Under the pieces are notes generated by a model. It did not search any database. It was given only the letters and a program-made list of their open reading frames with translations, and was not told where the DNA came from. A DNA stretch of 64,000 bases. Source: Armatimonadota bacterium (GTDB lineage Bacteria > Sysuimicrobiota > Sysuimicrobiia > Sysuimicrobiales > Kaftiobacteriaceae). Positions 24,509-52,000 of this stretch are shown here, piece after piece. The position numbers and the translations under genes were made by a program. The DNA is taken from assembly GCA_031459765.1 (NCBI GenBank), contig JAVKHY010000001.1, positions 124,001-188,000 on the forward strand. The letters run 5' to 3'. Position 1 is the stretch's first letter; each line of letters starts with the position of its first letter.

Positions 24509-25510
24509 ATGACCGCGCTGCTCGTGGCCACGGAGCGGGCGCTGTTCGTTGCGCGACGGGCATCACGCTGGTCTGTGGAGGAATCCCTGAAGGGCAAATC
24601 CCCCGATGCCCTCGCCGTTGATCCGCACCATCCCGGGCGTGCCTATGCCGGGACCTGGGGTCACGGCCTGTGGCGCACCGACGACGCCGGCCGCACCTGG
24701 CATCCGGCTGGCCGGGGGATTGCCTACGGCGAGGTCACGGCCGTCGCGGTCAGCCCGGCTGAAGGGGGCGTGGTGTATGCGGGCACGGAACCCAGCGCGG
24801 CCTTTCGCTCTGAGGACGGCGGAGAGACGTGGAACGAGCTGCCGGGACTGCGGGCGCTTCCCTCGTCCCGATCGTGGGCGTTCCCGCCCCGTCCCGAAAC
24901 CCACCACGTCCGCTGGATCGAGACCGATCCGGCCGTCCCCGGCAGAGTTTTCGTGGCCATCGAAGCCGGCGCGCTGGTCCGGACGCTCGACGGCGGCCGG
25001 ACCTGGCTGGACCGGGTGCGCGAAGGGCCGATCGACACGCACACGGCCGCCACGCACACCCTGGCGCCCGGCCGGCTGTACTCCGCGGCGGGAGACGGCT
25101 ACTTCGAAAGCACGGATGCGGGCGAGAGTTGGTCTCGTCAGGTGGACGGCCTGCAACACCGATACCTCGTCGGGGTCGCCGTCCACTCGGCCGACCCGGA
25201 TGCCGTCATCGTCTCTGCCGCATCAGGACCCTACGTCGCGTACAGCCCCCGCCGCGCCGAAGCCTACGTCTACCGCAAGAGCGCAAAGGGGGGATTCCAG
25301 CCGGCCATGGCCGGACTGCCGGACGCCCGAGGCACGGTGGCCAGCCGGTTCGCCGCCAGCCCGGACGAGCCGGGCATCATCTACGCGGCCAACAACCACG
25401 GGACCTTTTGCACCGCCGACGCCGGGAAGACCTGGCAGGTCGTGGAGATCCCCTGGCCCCAGGGCGCATTTGACCGCGGAGTGAATGCGCTGGCCTGCCT
25501 TCCCGACTGA
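24509..25510 (+). CDS. BNR/sialidase-like repeat propeller protein
   Basis: This 333-residue protein is made of repeated BNR/Asp-box modules typical of sortilin- or sialidase-like propellers: RTDDAGRTW, RSEDGGETW, RTLDGGRTW, ESTDAGESW and CTADAGKTW. There is no obvious signal peptide, so it may be cytoplasmic. Asp boxes are structural elements and do not imply sialidase activity. Catalytic residues for glycosidase action are not recognisable. It lies 31 bp after the S9 peptidase gene, so both may share a transcript. GAGGTGGCG precedes the ATG. Function is unknown. Confidence 0.82.
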   Translation: MTALLVATERALFVARRASRWSVEESLKGKSPDALAVDPHHPGRAYAGTWGHGLWRTDDAGRTWHPAGRGIAYGEVTAVAVSPAEGGVVYAGTEPSAAFRSEDGGETWNELPGLRALPSSRSWAFPPRPETHHVRWIETDPAVPGRVFVAIEAGALVRTLDGGRTWLDRVREGPIDTHTAATHTLAPGRLYSAAGDGYFESTDAGESWSRQVDGLQHRYLVGVAVHSADPDAVIVSAASGPYVAYSPRRAEAYVYRKSAKGGFQPAMAGLPDARGTVASRFAASPDEPGIIYAANNHGTFCTADAGKTWQVVEIPWPQGAFDRGVNALACLPD

Positions 25511-25629
25511 ACGATCGTACACCAGCGGCTGAGACGCGCACCCCCTTGCCCGCGGCGAACTTTTGCCCCGGCCTCCGCATCTATCTTCTAGAGGGAACCA
25601 GTCGCCTCAAGAACAGGAGGGAGGACGGC

Positions 25630-25701
25630 ATGAGGGCTTCTCGCGACGAGACGGCGCCAGTACTTGAGACACAGACTGCGCCGGTTCGCGAGACGCAGTG
25701 A
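25630..25701 (+). CDS. Short ORF with a duplicated 8-residue motif
   Basis: This predicted 23-residue peptide starts at ATG with AGGAGGGAGG about 5 nt upstream, the strongest ribosome-binding sequence in this stretch. The peptide contains TAPVLETQ followed at once by TAPVRETQ. The DNA differs at several synonymous sites between the two units, so the duplication has been kept at the protein level or is old. The peptide lacks cysteine and a signal. It lies 119 bp after the BNR-repeat gene and 72 bp before the cupin gene. No family is recognised. It might be a leader peptide, a peptide precursor or chance. Confidence 0.4.
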   Translation: MRASRDETAPVLETQTAPVRETQ

Positions 25702-25773
25702 GGCGGAATGCGGGCGGGAAGGTGTATCGCGCCGGAGACGCCTCTTCCTTCACAAATCCCAAAGGAGGCTGCG

Positions 25774-26148
25774 ATGCGCGGTTCAATGAAAGACCTGCCG
25801 GTGATTCTCGACGTTCCCGAGGGCAAGATCTGGCAGGTGGAATGGGGCGGCAACATCGTCGAGTTCGGCAAGTTCAACCAGCCTGTTGACCCCGCTCCAT
25901 TTTTCAAGGGCCTGCCTGACGATCGTTGTCAGTGTCCGCACTGGGGTTATGTGCTCAAAGGCCGTCTGCGCTATCGTTTCAAGGATCACGAGGAAATCTA
26001 CGAAGCGGGCGATGCCTATTACGCGCCCCCAGGCCACACTCCCGTGTTGGAAGCGGGCGTCGAGTACGTTGAACTCAGCCCGATGAAGGAACTGGCCAAG
26101 ACGATGGAAGTCGTCAAGCGTAACATGCAGATGATGAACCAAGTCTGA
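25774..26148 (+). CDS. Single-domain cupin protein
   Basis: This 124-residue protein is a small cupin beta-barrel. The first cupin motif is degenerate: CPHWGYVLKGRLRYRF has one His and a Cys (CQCPHWG) where the usual pattern has two His. The second motif GDAYYAPPGHTPVLEAG retains a His. Metal binding is therefore possible with a Cys/His set but not certain. AAAGGAGG precedes the ATG. Codons are richer in A/T than in flanking genes, as in the next two genes. It may act as a sensor or as an enzyme of small-molecule metabolism. Confidence 0.82.
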   Translation: MRGSMKDLPVILDVPEGKIWQVEWGGNIVEFGKFNQPVDPAPFFKGLPDDRCQCPHWGYVLKGRLRYRFKDHEEIYEAGDAYYAPPGHTPVLEAGVEYVELSPMKELAKTMEVVKRNMQMMNQV

Positions 26149-26161
26149 ACAAAGAAAAACC

Positions 26162-26776
26162 ATGACCATGACCTCTCGCTGGCGGGGGCTGGCGTTATTC
26201 CTCGGCGGCATCCTGACGGGGATCGGGCTGCTGATCCATCCCAATGACGCGGCTGACCCCAATGTGGTCATCACCGGACGCTGGAGTTTAGCGCACGGTC
26301 TACTCTTCGTCGGCGCGGTGCCGGCTCTGCTCGGGCTGGGGGGTGTTCACGAGCGCCTGAAGGGCTTGCTTGGCTTCATCGCCTACCTGCTGACCTTCAG
26401 CAGCATTGCCTCCTTTATCTTCGCATTTGCGCTCGAAACCTTTGTCGTACCCGTCATGGCCGCCGATCCCAACGCCGGGAAGTTACTGGATCCTACTGGT
26501 CCGTTGCTGGGGGGATCGCTGGGGGTCTTTCTTCTGGTCATCGGTCTCGCTTTTACCTTGGGCGCGATCCTGCTGGGTATTGCCATCCTGCGTTCGAGCG
26601 ACCTGCCCAAGTGGAGCGGGATTCTGTGGATTGGTGCTGCGCCGGTATCGCTGGTTCCACCTCTGCCCTATCCTGTGCTGCTCATCAGCGGTCTGGCCCT
26701 GGGGCTCGCCTTCGCTGTTACGGGCTTTGCCATCTGGTCGCGGCAAATGCCGATGACGCGTCCTGCGATTACCTGA
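26162..26776 (+). CDS. Polytopic membrane protein of unknown function
   Basis: This 204-residue protein has about six hydrophobic segments, starting at residue 8 (WRGLALFLGGILTGIGLLI) and ending near ALGLAFAVTGFAIWS. No catalytic motif is recognised. It resembles DUF4386-like or general four-to-six-pass membrane proteins only in overall layout. It begins 13 bp after the cupin stop, with no strong ribosome-binding sequence (AAAGAAAAACC), and shares that gene's lower-GC codon use. A 12-bp hairpin follows before the GNAT gene. Function is unknown. Confidence 0.78.
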   Translation: MTMTSRWRGLALFLGGILTGIGLLIHPNDAADPNVVITGRWSLAHGLLFVGAVPALLGLGGVHERLKGLLGFIAYLLTFSSIASFIFAFALETFVVPVMAADPNAGKLLDPTGPLLGGSLGVFLLVIGLAFTLGAILLGIAILRSSDLPKWSGILWIGAAPVSLVPPLPYPVLLISGLALGLAFAVTGFAIWSRQMPMTRPAIT

Positions 26777-26783
26777 ACACACG

Positions 26784-26820
26784 GCTGGGCGATGATCTTC
26801 ACCCGAGGTCATCGCCCAGC
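26784..26820 (+). terminator. 12-bp hairpin between membrane and GNAT genes
   Basis: Perfect arms GCTGGGCGATGA and TCATCGCCCAGC surround a 13-nt loop. The second arm ends 16 nt before the GNAT start codon, so it could terminate upstream transcription or mask the start. There is no T run after it. Confidence 0.6.
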
Positions 26821-26836
26821 TTCGAGAGAGACCGAA

Positions 26837-27682
26837 ATGTCTGGTTTTGTCCTTGCCGACTTCTCACCGCCTGCGCTCGCCCAGGCCGTCAAAACCAACC
26901 TGCACAATTTCTTCCGCTATATAGCCCGCGCGACGCCAACGGAATCTCTTGGCGATCCGGAACTGACACGCTGGCACACGCAGGTGCCCTTCCCCTGGTT
27001 CAACGGCGTGCTGGCTTCACGCCCGCCGACGAACGGCGACGAAGAAACCGTGCAGACAGCGATTGCCTGGTTCAAGGCCCGGGCGGTGACACGGTTTACC
27101 TGGTGGCTGACGCCGACGCTGCCGCGCACGGGCTGGGAAAAGCTTCTCCGAGCGCAGGGCTTTCAATCTTCAGACGGGCCGCCTGGCATGGCCGTGGAGT
27201 TGCACGCGCTGAAAGAAGACGGGACCCGCCCTGGGCTTCATATTGCTCCGGTGGCCGACGAAAAGACCTTACAGACGTGGACGCGCACGTTCATCTTCGG
27301 ATATGGATTGCCGCCGGATTGGGAGAAGCCCCTTCTGAAGATGATGACCGGCCTCGGGCTGGACCTGCCCATGCGCAACTACTTGGGCTATCTGGATGGT
27401 AGGCCGGTTGCTACTTCCAACTTATTTCTGAGCGCCGGGGTGGCCGGGGTGCAGTTTGTTGCCACGCTCCCCGAAGCGCGCGGGCAGGGCCTCGGCGGGG
27501 CGATGTCTCTCATGCCTCTGCTCGAGGCGCGGCAGATAGGTTACCACATTGGCGTCCTGCAATCCTCTGCGATGGGCTTCCCGGTCTATCGTCGGCTTGG
27601 ATTTCAGCAGGTTTGCCAGGTGGAGCATTACTACTGGGCAGAGGCGAGCGCGTCTGAAGCAGACGGACACCGAGATCATTGA
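26837..27682 (+). CDS. GNAT-family N-acetyltransferase
   Basis: This 281-residue protein carries one recognisable GNAT domain in its C-terminal half. The acetyl-CoA-binding loop is PEARGQGLGGAMSL (about residues 213-226), and the last strand FPVYRRLGFQQVCQVEHYYW is typical of the fold. The N-terminal half (about 1-140) looks like a degenerate second GNAT-like domain (PPGMAVELHAL). The substrate is unknown. The ATG follows GAGAGAGACC after the 12-bp hairpin. Codon use matches the two genes before it, which together look foreign to the surrounding high-GC sequence. Confidence 0.85.
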   Translation: MSGFVLADFSPPALAQAVKTNLHNFFRYIARATPTESLGDPELTRWHTQVPFPWFNGVLASRPPTNGDEETVQTAIAWFKARAVTRFTWWLTPTLPRTGWEKLLRAQGFQSSDGPPGMAVELHALKEDGTRPGLHIAPVADEKTLQTWTRTFIFGYGLPPDWEKPLLKMMTGLGLDLPMRNYLGYLDGRPVATSNLFLSAGVAGVQFVATLPEARGQGLGGAMSLMPLLEARQIGYHIGVLQSSAMGFPVYRRLGFQQVCQVEHYYWAEASASEADGHRDH

Positions 27683-27820
27683 GTGCAGCCCCCTGGGACC
27701 AGCTGGCGCAGGTGATTAACGTCGTGGAACAGAACCTTCCAGCCTAGCTTGAAACGACCGGCTCTCGCTGATCTTTGAACAGTTCGTCCTATCTTCGCCG
27801 AGGGCGGCCAGGAGCCGACT

Positions 27821-28828
27821 TTGCAGCGCGGCAACGAGTATCAGGCTCATCGAGGCAGGCGGGTTAATACCGACCTCGTCCGTCAGGCCCAGGCAGGGGA
27901 TACCGAAAGCCTGGGCATCCTTCTGGAACGCTGGCGCCCCTATATGTACGCGCGGGCTCTGCAGCTCCTGGTCTCACGCGACGCGGCGGAGGACGCGGTG
28001 CAGGACGCCTGTGTCATCGCTCTTTCCCGCATCGCCGAGATCCGAAACCCTGCTTCCTTTGGGAGCTGGATCTATGCCGTCGTGACGAACGTGTGCCGCG
28101 GTATGCTCCGAAAGGGCGGCAGAGTGGGCGCAGCCTCCCTGGGGCTGGAGAGATACTTATACCTCCACCACCCGGAACAGATGGCGGAGCATTACCTGGA
28201 GTCCGTCGCCTTCAAAGACCTGGTCTGGCGGGCCCTGTCCGGCCTGGGCGAAGATCTGAGAGTAGCGGTGATGCTGCGCTATTTCTCCTCCTACCGTTCC
28301 TATGAGGAGATCGCCCTGATCCTCGGGGTGCCGGTGGGGACGGTACGGAGCCGCCTGGCCGCGGCGAAGGATCAGCTGCTGCGTCAACTGCAGGCCGTGC
28401 GCCCGGCCCATCCGGAGGCCTCCGCCGGCACAACGACGTTTACCGTGAAGACCCTGGGGGAGATCTGGCGCGGTCTCTGGCAAGGTGACGCGCGGCCGTT
28501 CGACTTCTTCGATGCGGATCTGCGCTTTACGTTCGTCTACCCGGATGCGCCGCCATCCTCGCGTTCCGGCATCGCCTCCTGGAAAGATGAAGTGCGGGGC
28601 GACGTTCTTGCCGGCACCGTCGTCTACCCGGATCGTGTCGTCGCCTCCCACACGGTGTCGATTATCGAAGGTCGCATCGAAAACGCGCCGGAGACGCCGA
28701 CGCGCTGCCCTCCCGGCGCCGTCGCCGTGCTCTTCCACGGCGCGCACCGCATCACGCGCATGCGCATCCACATGGAACCCCGCCCGGCCGGGACGAGGGA
28801 CCGCTCGCCCCGGTCGTCTCCGGCATAG
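27821..28828 (+). CDS. ECF sigma factor with C-terminal extension
   Basis: This 335-residue protein has sigma-70 region 2 (about 18-85, LLERWRPYMYARALQLLVSRDAAEDAVQDA) and region 4 (about 130-185, RSYEEIALILGVPVGTVRSRLAAAKDQLLRQ). It ends in a 130-residue extension (VKTLGEIWRGLWQGDARPFDFF) possibly of SnoaL-like fold, as in ECF41-type factors, where the tail regulates activity in place of an anti-sigma factor. No anti-sigma gene is adjacent. The start is TTG with AGGAG about 10 nt upstream. A 138-bp gap precedes it. Target genes cannot be deduced here. Confidence 0.82.
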   Translation: MQRGNEYQAHRGRRVNTDLVRQAQAGDTESLGILLERWRPYMYARALQLLVSRDAAEDAVQDACVIALSRIAEIRNPASFGSWIYAVVTNVCRGMLRKGGRVGAASLGLERYLYLHHPEQMAEHYLESVAFKDLVWRALSGLGEDLRVAVMLRYFSSYRSYEEIALILGVPVGTVRSRLAAAKDQLLRQLQAVRPAHPEASAGTTTFTVKTLGEIWRGLWQGDARPFDFFDADLRFTFVYPDAPPSSRSGIASWKDEVRGDVLAGTVVYPDRVVASHTVSIIEGRIENAPETPTRCPPGAVAVLFHGAHRITRMRIHMEPRPAGTRDRSPRSSPA

Positions 28829-28926
28829 ACACTGCGTCGAGCGGCGAACCCGGCGACGAGCGATTCAAGAGCAGAACGAAGCCAGGGGATTGAGAGACGC
28901 GGTCGCGACCTAAGAGACCGAAGGTA

Positions 28927-29001
28927 TGGAGCCGGCGACGAGATTCGAACTCGTGACCTGCGCATTACGAGTGCGCTGCTCTACCACTGAGCTACGCCGG
29001 C
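28927..29001 (-). tRNA. tRNA-Thr (anticodon CGT), CCA encoded
   Basis: The minus-strand sequence folds into a full cloverleaf with acceptor stem GCCGGCG/CGCCGGC, D stem GCTC/GAGC, anticodon stem GCGCA/TGCGC around loop CTCGTAA, T arm GGTTCGAATC-type loop (GTTCGAATC) and encoded CCA. The anticodon CGT reads ACG. Confidence 0.96.
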
Positions 29002-39913: not shown

Positions 39914-40055
39914 TCCCCGGCCGTCCTTTCAGGAAGCGCGGACCGGCGCGGGGTGGGGCGAAACAGGACGGCGCTGCGCCGGCCTCGGGTGGGTGGACTA
40001 TTCGGCTCCCCGTGGTCCCGTATCCTGTCTGCGGCCGCCCCGCGGAAGCGCCGGA

Positions 40056-40318
40056 CGTACCCGCACCGTCGGCTCCGGCGATGGCATCGCCGTGGTGTGG
40101 ACAGCCGATGGCAAGCCGGTCGCGCAGCTTGGCCCGCACGAAAACGCGTGGATCGCCGTAGAGTGGAGCCCTGACGGCCGGTTCCTCGCTACGGCTCAGT
40201 TCCACGGGAATGTACGGATTTGGGAACGGGGTACCTGGAAGCAACTAGTGCTGCTGCGTGTTCACGCCTCGGCAGGTCTGGTGCGCTGGACGGATGGTTA
40301 CATTGCTGTGGCGGGGGG
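40056..40318 (+). pseudogene. WD40-repeat protein fragment
   Basis: An open plus-strand stretch encodes about two WD40 repeats: VWTADGKPVAQLGPHENAWIAVEWSPDG then FLATAQFHGNVRIWERGTWKQ and a half repeat (LVRWTDGYIAVAGG). No start, signal or full propeller is present; the coding character ends near 40318 after a probable frame change. It lies between the mmsA promoter region and the nuclease island, so it is probably an interrupted relic marking a recombination junction. Confidence 0.6.
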
Positions 40319-40325
40319 CGCATCC

Positions 40326-40613
40326 TCATCGTTCAGATCGTCCACTTGGCACCACACAGAGACGATAGGTTTCATCGAGAGAATGGTCACATCGATTTTG
40401 CCGGCAATCTTTCGAAGCGATCACCAAGGCATAAGGAGAAATCCCTTGCTGGACCCGCGCAAGGGCGTCACGGAAGAGCGAATCACGGATCCCGCCATCA
40501 CCGATCCGACTCTCGATCAGGATACTCTCAGGGACAGATAGCAGGCCGTGCTGCGAAAGCAGGTCGGCGAGAACGGCGTTGAGGACCTCCTCCCGAACCT
40601 CGAACGGCGACAC
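40326..40613 (-). CDS. 95-residue protein coupled to a nuclease-like gene
   Basis: This predicted 95-residue protein starts with GTG only 3 nt after the stop of the nuclease-like gene, so it is translationally coupled. The N-terminal part is helical and acidic (MSPFEVREEVLNAVLADLL). The middle contains ARVQQGISPYALVIASK and the C-terminus is basic. No family is recognised. Its 3' end touches the WD40 fragment, so the reading frame may be truncated by the junction near 40320. Confidence 0.5.
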   Translation of the reverse strand: MSPFEVREEVLNAVLADLLSQHGLLSVPESILIESRIGDGGIRDSLFRDALARVQQGISPYALVIASKDCRQNRCDHSLDETYRLCVVPSGRSER

Positions 40614-40616
40614 AAA

Positions 40617-41078
40617 TCACCTCGGCCGACGGCTACTGGCTCTCGGCTCCGCGAACAACAAATGCCAAGCATCGCGGTAGCGCAAGTCTTTGACTCGCTT
40701 GTAGTTCACGCACGTCACGCTAGGCAACCCCGACCATCGCTCTAGAATCTCGTCGATTTCGCTCGAAGGAACTACGAAGACCTCTGGCGATGCATGGGGC
40801 TCTTTGAATCGATGCTTGTAGCAAACGAGAACGTAAAAGTGAGCAGGGTCCCTCCGCTTGGGAGAGAGTGGCCAGTTGGTCGTATTCTTGAGGGCCTTTA
40901 CGTCAATCGTCACGGTTCGGCCGTCCGCATGATGGGCGCTCAGGTCTATCTCCTTCGTATGACCGAGGGTCAGCGAGACTCGGTGCCCCAGGCGGAGCAG
41001 GGAGGCGGCAACGTAGAACTCCGCCGCCAGGGCGGCAATCTGTGTTTCGCCCCTCGGGGTTCGAAGCTGCTTTGCCAT
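40617..41078 (-). CDS. PD-(D/E)XK nuclease-like protein
   Basis: This 153-residue protein has the layout of a small restriction-endonuclease-like fold. A helix carries Glu20 (ALAAEFYVAASLLRLGH), then EIDL contains Asp45, and TIDVKA supplies Asp59 and Lys61, giving a plausible E...D...DxK catalytic set. The remaining part (FYVLVCYKHR, EVFVVPSSEIDEIL) alternates strands and helices as expected. DNA is the likely substrate, but this is inferred. Its ATG follows a hairpin and CAGGC. The 95-residue gene is coupled to it. Lower-GC codons set it apart from neighbouring mmsA. Confidence 0.7.
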   Translation of the reverse strand: MAKQLRTPRGETQIAALAAEFYVAASLLRLGHRVSLTLGHTKEIDLSAHHADGRTVTIDVKALKNTTNWPLSPKRRDPAHFYVLVCYKHRFKEPHASPEVFVVPSSEIDEILERWSGLPSVTCVNYKRVKDLRYRDAWHLLFAEPRASSRRPR

Positions 41079-41103
41079 GCCTGCCTCACCCCGTCCTTCG
41101 CGG

Positions 41104-41244
41104 TCAAAGCAGAAGCCCCGCCCACCCGGGGGTGAGGCGGGGCTTCCTTGTCGATCCGGCGCTCATGCTCCGACGCATGTTGCTTGGCGGCGCGAGCCAA
41201 TATTCCTCCTCGTCCCCGCAGACGGCACACAGATATGGCGGCAA
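41104..41244 (-). CDS. Possible short CxxC protein
   Basis: An open frame on the minus strand from TTG at 41244 encodes about 46 residues beginning PPYLCAVCGDEEEYWLAPP. A CxxC pair followed by acidic residues looks like a half zinc ribbon. An upstream in-frame stop lies 39 nt before that codon, and a GAGGAGG nearer an ACG codon would suit a longer form with a non-canonical start. The last third lies inside the hairpin at 41112-41146. It is uncertain whether this is translated. Confidence 0.3.
   Translation of the reverse strand: MPPYLCAVCGDEEEYWLAPPSNMRRSMSAGSTRKPRLTPGWAGLLL
41112..41146 (-). terminator. 11-bp hairpin in the nuclease island
   Basis: Arms GAAGCCCCGCC and GGCGGGGCTTC enclose a 13-nt loop. 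On the minus strand it is followed by TGCTTTGA, which is mildly T-rich. It lies between the SNase gene and the nuclease-like gene and probably separates two transcripts. Confidence 0.65.
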
Positions 41245-41381
41245 TCGCTTGCGCTCGTAAGGGTTCGTTGCAGCCTCCTCAGAGGTCCGTCAGAGCTTCA
41301 AATGTCCTCGCGGAGGACCCTTTGAAACGTTGCCAACCGCTGCTTCTCGTTCGACACCCCGGGGCAATCGGAGGCTCGGCC

Positions 41382-41933
41382 TCACCTTCCCCAAAGGCCG
41401 CGCCTCTTCTCGCGGGCCTCCCGCTGACAGGCGAGGAAGAGTTCAGCGTACTTCACATTGGGCGGGATGGTCAGCACCTGAGCGTAGCCCGCCCGCAATA
41501 TCAGCATGTTGAACAGCCTACCATCGAGGAGCCAGACGTAAGCGAGGACGCGACCGTAGCGGTCGCGGACTTGCACGTCCAATTCCAACCCTACCTCTTT
41601 GCCCTGGAGATGCTTCTTCGTGAACTGTGAGGCAAGCCAGCCAAATTCTTGGATGACTTCCTTCGGTACCCCCGACTCGTAAGCATCGCGGTTCAGTTTG
41701 GCGCTCTCGTGGACCTCCGGTGTATCGATCCCGATCAACCGAACGCGCTCCCGGCGGCCGTCCAGCCTCACCTGCACGGTATCGCCGTCCACAACCCACC
41801 CAATCGTGGCCGCGAAGAGTTCTTCGGGCACCGGTGGGTTTTGGCAGGCAACCCGTGCTGCCCCCAAGCGTGAACCCGATAGCGCGAAGACCAAAGTCAG
41901 CGCGACTAGGAGGATTGTTTTCTCGGGTCTCAT
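41382..41933 (-). CDS. Secreted staphylococcal-nuclease-like (SNase) protein
   Basis: This 183-residue thermonuclease-like enzyme has a signal peptide (about 1-26, ILLVALTLVFALSGSRL) and an SNase OB-fold. Conserved parts are DGDTVQVRLDG, RVRLIGIDTPEV with the catalytic Arg and Glu, and a second Arg in DRYGRVLAYVW. The family cuts DNA and RNA with calcium. The substrate-binding Lys/Tyr region VPKEVIQEFGWLA is present. It is encoded in the lower-GC island, 39 bp after the DUF2130 gene on the same strand and may share its transcript. Confidence 0.9.
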   Translation of the reverse strand: MRPEKTILLVALTLVFALSGSRLGAARVACQNPPVPEELFAATIGWVVDGDTVQVRLDGRRERVRLIGIDTPEVHESAKLNRDAYESGVPKEVIQEFGWLASQFTKKHLQGKEVGLELDVQVRDRYGRVLAYVWLLDGRLFNMLILRAGYAQVLTIPPNVKYAELFLACQREAREKRRGLWGR

Positions 41934-41972
41934 CCTCCGCGGTTTGTCCGTGCAGCAGTCATATTGGGGCGC

Positions 41973-43079
41973 TCAGGATCGTAGCTGCACGACCTTTTCG
42001 GCTCCTACATCGCGGACAGGGCGCTCGATTATCGCGCGGATCGATGCGTCGATTGCGCCGCTCTTCTTCAGCAGAGCCTTGTAGGCGGCCTCTCGGCGCG
42101 CCCAAGTCTGCTCATGCCCTCGACGCTCTTTCTGAAGCTCCGTCTGCAGTTTCGAGCTGATCCCGATGAGGTCTGCAAGTGTATCCCGGAACTCCACGCC
42201 GGAGAGGTACTGGTATAGCTCCGCCGTCTTCTGGCTGCGGTCCACTACCGACAGTCCCGCCCTGTGCACCTCGATGACCATCCGCCGCACCACTTCGGCA
42301 AGGTGCAATACTCCGTCGGGATGGATCACCGGGATGCCGTCCTGCAGGCAGAAGTGCCTGTGTTTGCGAGGAAAGACTCTGGTAACGAGGATGACGTGAG
42401 GCGTCCTGTGCGTCTCTTGGGCTTGCCTGGCCTGCGCAACGAACTCGTTCTTCCAATCCTGAGCATCTTTGCACTCGTACACGATCTGTCCAGCAGCTAC
42501 CAGCTGTTCCCCGGTCCGGTATCGCACCGTTTGAATGAGATCTGCGCCAGCGCGGCCCCGTCCGACGCGCTTGACCTCGTCGTCCCGAAACGCCGCTTCC
42601 AACTGGCGCTTCAAGTCTTCCTCGTTGAACTCACCACGGTCGCCGGGCTGAAGGCCATCGAGTTGGCGGCGAAGTCGCTCCGCCTCGGCGCGTTGCCGGT
42701 CCGCTTCTGCTCGTTGCCGTTCAGCCTGCTCCCGGTAGCGCCTGGCGATCACCTCCAGTTGCTTTACACGTCTGTCATCTTTCCTAGCTGCCTTGAGCTG
42801 CGCTTCATACTCCCTGCGCATCTCCACACGCATCTTCTTCCGCTCAGCAGCAAGCTGCGCGCGCATCTCCCGCTTGACCTCTCGCGCAGCCTGAGCCTTC
42901 ACGGCAGCGATCTTCGCGTCATACTCCGCCCGGATCAGCGACCGGGCCTCCTTCTCAGCCTCTGCCCTCAGGCGTCGCTCAAAGCTTGCCTGCGCACGGT
43001 ACAGGTGCGCAATCGCCTGTTCGTTGACCAAGGGCTGACCACAGAAAGGACACCTCCTAGGTGCGGTGGGCTTGCTCAT
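41973..43079 (-). CDS. DUF2130 coiled-coil, PD-(D/E)XK-like protein
   Basis: This 368-residue protein has a CPFCG motif (Cys10, Cys13) at the N-terminus, then a long charged coiled coil (about 30-140) rich in Arg, Glu and Ala, and a C-terminal DUF2130 domain. The domain contains GADL (Asp180) and YECKDA (Glu202, Lys204), an arrangement of D...ExK like restriction-type nucleases, followed by TPHVILVTRVFP. GGGGAGG precedes the ATG. The family has no established role. Its position with an SNase and another nuclease-like gene suggests a nucleic-acid task, possibly defence or repair. Confidence 0.85.
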   Translation of the reverse strand: MSKPTAPRRCPFCGQPLVNEQAIAHLYRAQASFERRLRAEAEKEARSLIRAEYDAKIAAVKAQAAREVKREMRAQLAAERKKMRVEMRREYEAQLKAARKDDRRVKQLEVIARRYREQAERQRAEADRQRAEAERLRRQLDGLQPGDRGEFNEEDLKRQLEAAFRDDEVKRVGRGRAGADLIQTVRYRTGEQLVAAGQIVYECKDAQDWKNEFVAQARQAQETHRTPHVILVTRVFPRKHRHFCLQDGIPVIHPDGVLHLAEVVRRMVIEVHRAGLSVVDRSQKTAELYQYLSGVEFRDTLADLIGISSKLQTELQKERRGHEQTWARREAAYKALLKKSGAIDASIRAIIERPVRDVGAEKVVQLRS

Positions 43080-43449
43080 CGAGATCCTCCCCTTGCTACG
43101 GATTCCTCCGGTCGTCCGCGCTGCGCGTCGATTCTGGTTTCGCGCTGGCCTGATGCTGCACAATTTAAGCACATCTAACACTAGCTCACTTCCTGCATCA
43201 GTCAACTTGTTTACTACCCAATTGGCGCCGATTGGAGACAGCGTGCAGCTACCTAATGCGGGAGAACCCGCACGAGAGGTGCTCGCGCAGATGCCGGGGT
43301 GCTGGCCCCTGTTGAGCCGAATCGCTTACGATGACATAGGGCTTCACTCAGGAACTACGCTCTCAACTCCGAGACAAGCAGTCCATGGGTCCAAGCAGGG
43401 ACCCCGCAAAGGGGAATGCGCGAAAAGCCTTGATAGACGCGGGGGTTCG
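43080..43449. other. 370-bp lower-GC intergenic stretch, no gene seen
   Basis: This region between the DUF2130 gene and tRNA-Val contains no supported ORF. It holds the likely DUF2130 promoter at 43178-43205 and small GC-rich hairpins (for example GGGTCC/GGACCC near 43387-43402) that may end the tRNA-Val transcript. Confidence 0.5.
43178..43205 (-). promoter_or_regulatory. Putative promoter of the DUF2130 gene
   Basis: On the minus strand TTGACT (43200-43205) and TAGTGT (43178-43183) are 16 nt apart. The leader would be about 90 nt. This is the most AT-rich part of the intergenic stretch. Confidence 0.4.
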
Positions 43450-43525
43450 TGGTGGGCGGTGCAGGACTTGAACCTGCGACCTCATGCGTGTGAAGCATGC
43501 GCTCTAACCACTGAGCTAACCGCCC
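43450..43525 (-). tRNA. tRNA-Val (anticodon CAC), CCA encoded
   Basis: The minus-strand sequence gives a complete cloverleaf: acceptor GGGCGGT/ACCGCCC, D stem GCTC/GAGC, anticodon stem CATGC/GCATG around TTCACAC, T loop GGTTCAAGTCC-type and encoded CCA. The anticodon CAC reads GTG. Its 3' end faces the nuclease island. Confidence 0.96.
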
Positions 43526-49039: not shown

Positions 49040-52000
49040 GCCCGGATCTGATCTGCGCCGTTCCCGCCGTTCTGGCCCCCGGCGACGGCGGCGGGAGCGG
49101 AGACTGGTGCCGTCTCGGTTTGCGGCGCCTTCCGCCTTGCCCGATATCCTTCGACGCTGACGTACAGCGTTGGGATGAAAACCAGGGTGACCATCGTCCC
49201 GATAAGCAGTCCTCCGATGACCGCGCGGGCGAGGGGAACCTGGAGTTCGGCCCCTTCGCCGATCCCGATCGCCGTCGGCAGCAGTCCCATCACAGTCGTC
49301 ACCGTCGTCATCAGCACCGGGCGGAGGCGGGCCACAGAGCCGTCCACGGTGGCCGCCTCCAGGGGCATCCCGTCACGGCGCCGCCGGACCATGATGAAGT
49401 CGATCAGCAGGATGGCGTTGTTCACGATGACGCCGGCCAGCACGATCAGGCCGATCAGGGACTGGATGTTGAGCGTCGTCCCCGTCAGAAACAGCATCAG
49501 CAGCCCGCCGCTCAGGGCAAAGGGCACCGACCCCATGATCAACAGCGGTGCCAGCAACGCCTCGAACTGCACGGCCATGACGGCGAAGACCAGGAGGACG
49601 GCCACGAGGAAGCCCATGGAGAGCTGGCGGTAGGACCGCTGCTGCTCTTCGTAGGTCTGCCCGAGGGCCAGGGAAAACCCCTCCGGCAGAGGCAGCCCCG
49701 CCAGGGCCGACCGGACGTCGGCCATGACGCTGCCGAAGTCGCGCCCGCTGATCCCCGCGGTCACCGTGATCACGCGCTGGCGGCTGCGGCGGAAGATCTG
49801 GGTGGGCGACTCCCCGCGGACCAGCTCCGCCACCTGGCCGAGCAGCACCCGCCGCCCCGAGGGCGAGATGATCGGGATGGAGAGGACCTGGGTCGGCGTC
49901 AGGGCCCGGCCCGCCTCCTGGCTGACCACGATGTCCGTTTCCCGCCCGGCCGCGCGCAGCGTCGTCGCCACCTCGCCCTCCACCGCGGTGCGCAGGGCGC
50001 TGGCCACCTGGGATGGGCTGACGCCGAAGGCGGCGGCCCGTTCCACGTCGATCCGCACCACGACCTCGGGCAGCGCCTCTTCCCGCGCCACCGTCGCGTC
50101 GATCACGCCGGGGATGCGCTCCAGCAGGTCCCGGACCTGCTGCGCCAGACTCAGCCCCTGGCGGAGGTCGAAGCCGCGGATCTCCACCTCGATGGGGTCG
50201 GCGTCACCGCCCCCGAAGCGGAGGATGCCCAGCGCCCCGGCGCTGCCCCGGACGAAGACCCGGGCTCCCGGCTCCTGCAGGCGGGGTCTCAGGGCGGCGA
50301 CGATCTGCTCCGTGGAGCGGGACCGGCTGCCGCGGTCGACGAGGCGCACGCGGATGAAGCCCCGGTGCGACCCGCCGCCGAAGGTGGTCGTCCCCGCCGT
50401 CACCGACACGTACTCCGCCTCGGGCACGGCCGAGCGGATCACCTCCTCGAACCGCGCCAGGACCCGGTCGGTGACCTCCAGCCGCGTCCCGATGGGCATG
50501 GTCACCGACACGAAGAACTCACCTTCATCGGCCGCAGGCAGCGTCTCCCGGCCGATCAGGGAGAAGGTGGCCAGCCCGAGGAGAAAGACGACCGCGCTGG
50601 CCATGAACACCGGGCGGCGGTGCCGGAGGCTCCAGGTCAGGATCTGCCGGTAGGTGGCCAGCAAACCGCCGGGTCGCATCCGGGCCGCATCTTCCCGCCG
50701 GACCAGCCGGGGCAGGTGGGCGGCCAGCGACGGGATGAGCGTGACGGCGACCACCAGCGAGCACAGCAGCGCGAAGACCACGACCACCGAGAACTGGAAG
50801 AACAGCTGGGTGGTGATCACGCTGCCCCGCAGAAAGATGACGGGGAGGAAGACGACGACCGTGGTCAGCGTGGAGGCCAGGATCGCCGCGGCCACCTCCT
50901 GCGCTCCGACCGTCGCCGCCTCGGGCCCGCTCTTGCCCATCTCGCGATGCCGGAAGATGTTCTCCAGCACGACGATAGAGGCGTCCACGAGCATGCCGAT
51001 GCCCATGGCCAGAGCCCCCAGCGTCATCAGGTTCAGGGAGTACCCGGCGAAGAACATCAGGACGAAGGTGGCCACCACCGAGGTCGGCAGCGCGGCGGCG
51101 ATGACCAGCACGCTGCGCACGTCGCGCAGGAACAGCAACAGCACGGCCACGGCCAGTCCGCCGCCGATGAGAATGGCCTGCTGGACGGAGCGCAGGGTGG
51201 AGCGGATGAAGCGGGCCGAGTCGTTCAGGACGAGCAGCTCCGCCCCGCGCAGCGTCGGGGCGGTCTCGCGCACGGCGCGCAGGATGCCGTCGCTGACGGC
51301 GACGGTGTTGGCGCCGGACTGGCGTTGCACCTGGATCATGACTCCGGGCTGTCCGTTCACCCGCACCAGGCTGGTGGGCTCCTCCTGGCCCACCGAGACC
51401 CGGGCGACATCGGCCACGTAGATGGGCACGCCGTCGCGCACCGTGACGATGGTGCGGGCGATCTCTCCCACGTCCCGGTACTGGCTGAGCACCCGCAGGC
51501 CCAGATGACGGGTCCCCTCGACGACCTGGCCGCCGGCTTCCACCAGGTTGGCGCCGGCCAGCGCCGAGCGGATGTCCCGTTCGGATACGGCGAGCGCCTG
51601 CGCCCGCACGGGGTCCATCTCCACCAGGATCTGACGGCGCAGCCCCCCGGAGATCGTCACCGCAGCCACGTCCGGCACCCGCTCCAGGCGGAACTGCACC
51701 TGGTCCTCGGCGATCTGCCGCAGCTGGAGGGGACCGATCTCAGGCGACCGGCTCACCAGGCCGAGCCACACGATTGGGGACTGGGAGGGATCGAACTTGA
51801 AGACGACCGGGGTCGAGGCGGCCGGGGGCAGGCGACGCCGCGCGCGTTCGATGGCCACCCGCACATCGGCGGCGGCCAGGTCCAGATTCGTCCCGAAGGG
51901 GAAGGTCACGGTGACGCGCGAACTCCCCTCCGACGAAGTGGAGATGACGTCCTCCGCGCCCACCGCGGTGCCCACCGTTTCCTCGATCACGCGGGTGACC

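Follow-up and report, generated by a model that had tools for sequence, protein, structure and literature searches.

Does a cluster of nuclease-like genes in atypical DNA beside a tRNA gene constitute one undescribed nucleic-acid system, or is it a set of unrelated leftovers? This question is raised by a short island in the 64-kb stretch of Armatimonadota bacterium DNA that was analyzed (hereafter the window). The island (40326–43449; 3124 nt) has a GC content of 0.603 (60%), the minimum of all 3.1-kb stretches in the window (window mean 0.692, sd 0.026), compared with 71% in its flanks, and the GC3 values of its four genes range from 0.57 to 0.73, while those of flanking genes range from 0.90 to 0.98. 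The lower-GC island described by an earlier sequence-only reading is therefore real and compositionally foreign. Its borders are also found as that reading had described them: a relic on the left that consists of a WD40-repeat fragment (about 40053–40290, plus strand; Pfam WD40, 2.5e-7) with no full-length gene around it, and an intact tRNA-Val(CAC) gene on the right (43450–43525; Rfam, 75.3 bits), whose location on the minus strand places the island on the 3' side of the tRNA. All four ORFs are on the minus strand and thus co-directional, as proposed: from the tRNA inward, they encode a DUF2130 protein (P0002, 41973–43079), a secreted SNase, or thermonuclease (P0004, 41382–41933), a 153-aa putative PD-(D/E)XK nuclease (P0001, 40617–41078) and a 95-aa product that is probably that of a pseudogene (P0003, 40326–40613). 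The count of three nuclease-like proteins also holds, with two predicted PD-(D/E)XK folds and one SNase. A terminator-like hairpin (41116–41131, minus strand) separates the SNase gene from the 153-aa gene, which makes a single operon of four genes improbable; such hairpins were identified by consensus match only, and four were found where 2.6 were expected from shuffles.

The tRNA-Val(CAC) site was compared among relatives. In G003, two extra 45-nt copies of tRNA-Val (tRNA positions 32–76, from the anticodon loop to CCA) are found downstream of the gene in the same orientation and about 2.7 kb apart. G006 carries two copies downstream of tRNA-Val, one of 45 nt and one of 34 nt, and other cargo in between. 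This cargo includes a protein weakly similar to DUF6998 (2.3e-4, below the cut-off), encoded between tRNA-Val and the first fragment (L111, 1–2431), in which a PD-(D/E)XK-like motif pattern was recognized by eye. The 3' flank of tRNA-Val differs among the relatives read, and a uracil-DNA glycosylase gene is found near the other side of the tRNA in the window, G003 and G009. The tRNA-Val fragments in the relatives identify the site as an integration hotspot, in a small and sparsely sampled bacterial phylum. Fragments of the anticodon-loop type represent one crossover class of tRNA genomic islands (Islander, PMC4383910). The window resembles such islands in that an intact tRNA has foreign DNA on its 3' side, and the relatives G003 and G006 match their anticodon-loop-type fragments, but the window island itself possesses neither a tRNA fragment nor an integrase: a search for att repeats in the window with the 3' end of tRNA-Val returned no word longer than 12 nt, and none of the 45-nt matches exceeded the chance level; no tyrosine integrase was found among the island ORFs. 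The hotspot reading thus rests on the relatives and on position, from which we infer integration at the window's own tRNA-Val. The suggestion that this is atypical DNA of the kind integrated beside tRNA genes is therefore supported by the relatives and not by an att fragment or integrase in the window. As a separate observation, a 45-nt tRNA-Val fragment bounds each of the two segments, about 2.7 kb long and arranged in tandem, that make up the G003 locus (L038, 1–5713); an alpha/beta hydrolase-like and a phosphoribosyltransferase-like gene are found there, and none of the ORFs read is evidently an integrase.

We propose, with a probability of roughly 0.75, that the island is not one system but a small patch of cargo at the tRNA-Val(CAC) hotspot, acquired horizontally and decayed in part. 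This reading draws on the foreign composition, the tRNA fragments in relatives, the unrelated distributions of the gene families and the methylase pieces in the 95-aa ORF; its remaining steps, namely the roles of the genes and the loss of a methylase, we infer. The alternative that survives best is that the island is a complete small integrative cassette that is mobilized in trans, like the att-flanked segments of G003 and G006. It would share with them the same tRNA, the same side and a similar size (about 3 kb versus 1.8–2.7 kb), and their short segments likewise have no evident integrase. The window, however, contains no distal tRNA fragment, its best 45-nt matches being at chance level, and we consider a complete cassette unlikely.

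The 153-aa protein has seven relatives with 37–61% identity in unrelated phyla, from genomes of Thiobacillus, Syntrophaceae, Aerophobetes, Aminicenantes and the archaea Altiarchaeales and Aenigmatarchaeota, and the family profile identified 11 further places in 10 other genomes (386 searched). None of the 42 other genomes searched in the phylum has the family, and no relatives were found by sequence search in phages, plasmids and viral contigs; phrog_29029, a phage protein family of unknown function, matches the protein at 5.5e-12. The four residues that had been singled out as PD-(D/E)XK-like (E20, D45, D59 and K61) are invariant across the eight aligned sequences. An AlphaFold model built on the family alignment (pLDDT 82) agrees with them: the best Foldseek match is the homing endonuclease I-Ssp6803I (2ost; probability 0.99), followed by NhoI, EcoRV and SPARDA nucleases, and while the E-values are weak (best 7e-3), the top matches are almost all PD-(D/E)XK enzymes. 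None of the Pfam and NCBIfam cut-offs was passed, including that of PDDEXK_5 (PF11645), although L068, which is distantly related, reaches 24.7 bits (2.7e-5) with PF11645, just under the cut-off of 26.1. A match to pPIWI_RE_REase (0.023) was rejected as generic PD-(D/E)XK similarity. By predicted fold and by E20/D45/D59/K61, the 153-aa protein is thus a putative PD-(D/E)XK nuclease that has the fold and the E..D..DxK residues in common with PDDEXK_5, I-Ssp6803I and NhoI; it differs from them in that no intron was seen.

The 95-aa ORF begins 3 nt after the 153-aa gene, and a ribosome-binding-like GAGGTGA that overlaps the stop of the 153-aa gene precedes its GTG, which makes this start codon plausible. 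Both features favor the view that the nuclease and the 95-aa protein form a working two-gene module, in which the latter would be a small regulator or antitoxin, and the sequence-only reading had regarded it as a coupled partner. Searches of 386 genomes, viral contigs, phages, plasmids and the PDB, however, returned only noise, and no partner of this type is found beside the 153-aa relatives in the neighborhoods read, so that neither the partner nor the conservation of the pair is upheld. Two matches from those searches were inspected and dismissed as chance, as was a match of 24 residues to PHBC_N (0.0013, below the cut-off). The 95-aa sequence is reminiscent of the N-terminus of a methylase family, and a consensus of that N-terminus found N-6 DNA methylases on two plasmids, pUSP4 of Aminobacter (WP_108610813.1) and pSTJ1 of Sulfuricystis (WP_126447967.1), both with weak N-6 methylase domains. 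A third member of this family is found in genome G176. Scored against a profile built solely from these three database methylases, the 95-aa ORF reaches 17.8 bits, compared with 7.5 bits for the best of 3000 shuffles, and an E-value of 5e-4 that is optimistic because the family was picked after its sequence had been read. The match consists of two collinear pieces shared with the N-6 DNA methylases of pUSP4 and pSTJ1, which carry an N-terminal PD..ExK site. The approximately 20 residues missing between the pieces correspond to the PD..ExK motif of the intact proteins (PDVLI...RVxIEGK), and everything past about residue 85 of about 950 is also missing; about 850 residues are lost in this way, the methylase domain among them. 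Most likely, therefore, the 95-aa ORF is a pseudogene in which the N-terminus of an N-6 DNA methylase has been truncated and its nuclease active site apparently deleted. Flanking methylase pieces with the active site missing between them fit decay, and a working two-gene module is very unlikely.

Within the preferred reading of partly decayed cargo, the 153-aa gene and the methylase stump may be the remains of a restriction-modification-type locus that lost its methylase; at present, only the N-terminal stump is found beside the 153-aa nuclease and not an intact DNA methylase. The 153-aa protein, whose sequence is still intact, is predicted to be a probably metal-dependent, double-strand DNA endonuclease that would cut invading DNA.

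The other two genes have distributions of their own. P0004 is well above the cut-off of Pfam PF00565 (4e-23; 82.3 bits versus 21) and contains the motifs DGDT (49), RLIGIDTPE (65) and YGRVLAY (126) and a signal-like N-terminus. It is thus predicted to be an ordinary SNase, secreted as the sequence-only reading had stated, with catalytic motifs and an N-terminus like those of staphylococcal-nuclease-like thermonucleases and no notable difference from them, and it may be exported to degrade extracellular nucleic acid. Among the 42 other genomes of the phylum, 14 have homologues with 45–66% identity, which lie at unrelated places; by distribution it is a gene of the lineage, yet its composition in the island is low in GC. 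In G006, an SNase gene is found 16 kb from the gene with weak similarity to DUF6998, on the same contig.

P0002 passes the cut-off of the DUF2130 family, Pfam PF09903 (7.5e-24; 84.8 bits versus 26.7). Its N-terminal zinc-finger-like CPxCG motif is followed by a coiled coil and a PD-(D/E)XK-like domain, a layout it has in common with the DUF2130 family, as are the D/E/K residues noted earlier: D180 and K204 are invariant among relatives, and E202 is found in all but one, where it is replaced by D. The modeled domain matches Hjc, Bax1, MspJI and HindIII in Foldseek with probabilities of 0.77–0.97 and weak E-values (best 1.4e-2). By model and conserved residues, the protein is thus predicted to fold as a PD-(D/E)XK enzyme that keeps D180/E202/K204. 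It is a divergent member, with 19–27% identity to others and 84.8 bits in comparison with about 160–306 for most members found. DUF2130 was not found in any of the 42 other genomes searched in the phylum. Of the closest relatives, one is found beside ParB-like and tyrosine recombinase genes in G236 and one beside NO VEIN-type and HNH genes in G171, and the IMG/VR viral contigs that carry DUF2130 genes number at least 20 (L126–L145). P0002 is a candidate coiled-coil DNA nuclease of mobile-element type, and it, the SNase and the 153-aa protein would act independently.

No other genome was found in which the gene set of the island is kept together. Neither DUF2130 nor SNase genes are found near the 153-aa relatives L005–L011, and co-travel of DUF2130 with the 153-aa family was rejected because the two genomes that hold both (G171 and G254) hold them on different contigs. 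PADLOC returned no significant model match on the island; weak ones were obtained for the 95-, 153- and 368-aa proteins, and the SNase matches C3a212 (SNc+LTD) through its SNase domain alone. It is hence highly improbable, and largely refuted already by this scattering, that all four genes form a single undescribed nuclease-based defense system against invading nucleic acid, as four co-directional genes, three of them nuclease-like, of foreign composition and at a hotspot might suggest, given also that the SNase is predicted to be exported and occurs at unrelated places in relatives, that a terminator-like hairpin splits the set and that the 95-aa member is a stump. The sequence-only reading, which had advanced the system, had itself stated that the idea fails if relatives carry the genes dispersed and without linkage, and dispersed genes and a stump are what was found. 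A nuclease-rich appearance can thus arise from unrelated leftovers.

What the cargo reading leaves as a lasting lead is the 153-aa family, a small PD-(D/E)XK family under the Pfam cut-offs that recurs by five different defense systems. In 5 of the 16 neighborhoods of its relatives that were read, a recognized defense gene is adjacent or one gene away: an XhoI-type restriction-modification (R-M) pair (L006), a type III methylase, Mod (L069; PADLOC, 4e-298), an OLD/AriA/GajA-like ATPase (L071), DpdE (L074; 1.5e-238) and a DruE-like helicase (L076; 7.9e-73). In four of these five cases, the defense gene is directly adjacent to the 153-aa relative and in the same direction; the rest of the 16 neighborhoods are ordinary-looking or unclear. 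The suspected link to defense thus stands as far as the 153-aa relatives adjoin defense systems, and not as one defense system made of the island genes. These neighborhoods suggest a defense-associated solo nuclease, which we regard as a lead and not as proof. A further possibility, tentative and to be held with some doubt, is that the family is a small, widely transferred and hitherto unrecognized accessory nuclease of many defense systems, covering R-M, type III R-M, OLD-like, Dpd and Druantia-like loci, that can also persist alone. If the association holds at scale, the 153-aa family would be a candidate shared defense nuclease.

Two other places in the window may be mentioned. A second low-GC stretch (25500–28900) could be another tRNA island. 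It includes the 3.1 kb with the second-lowest GC in the window, its genes (GC3 0.69–0.79) were named by eye as cupin-, membrane-, GNAT- and sigma-factor-like, and its end adjoins tRNA-Thr(CGT) (28927–29001) on the 3' side. A 98-nt tRNA-Val(GAC) at 51258–51355, called by ARAGORN and absent from the Rfam results, may be a spurious prediction or a tRNA that carries an insertion.
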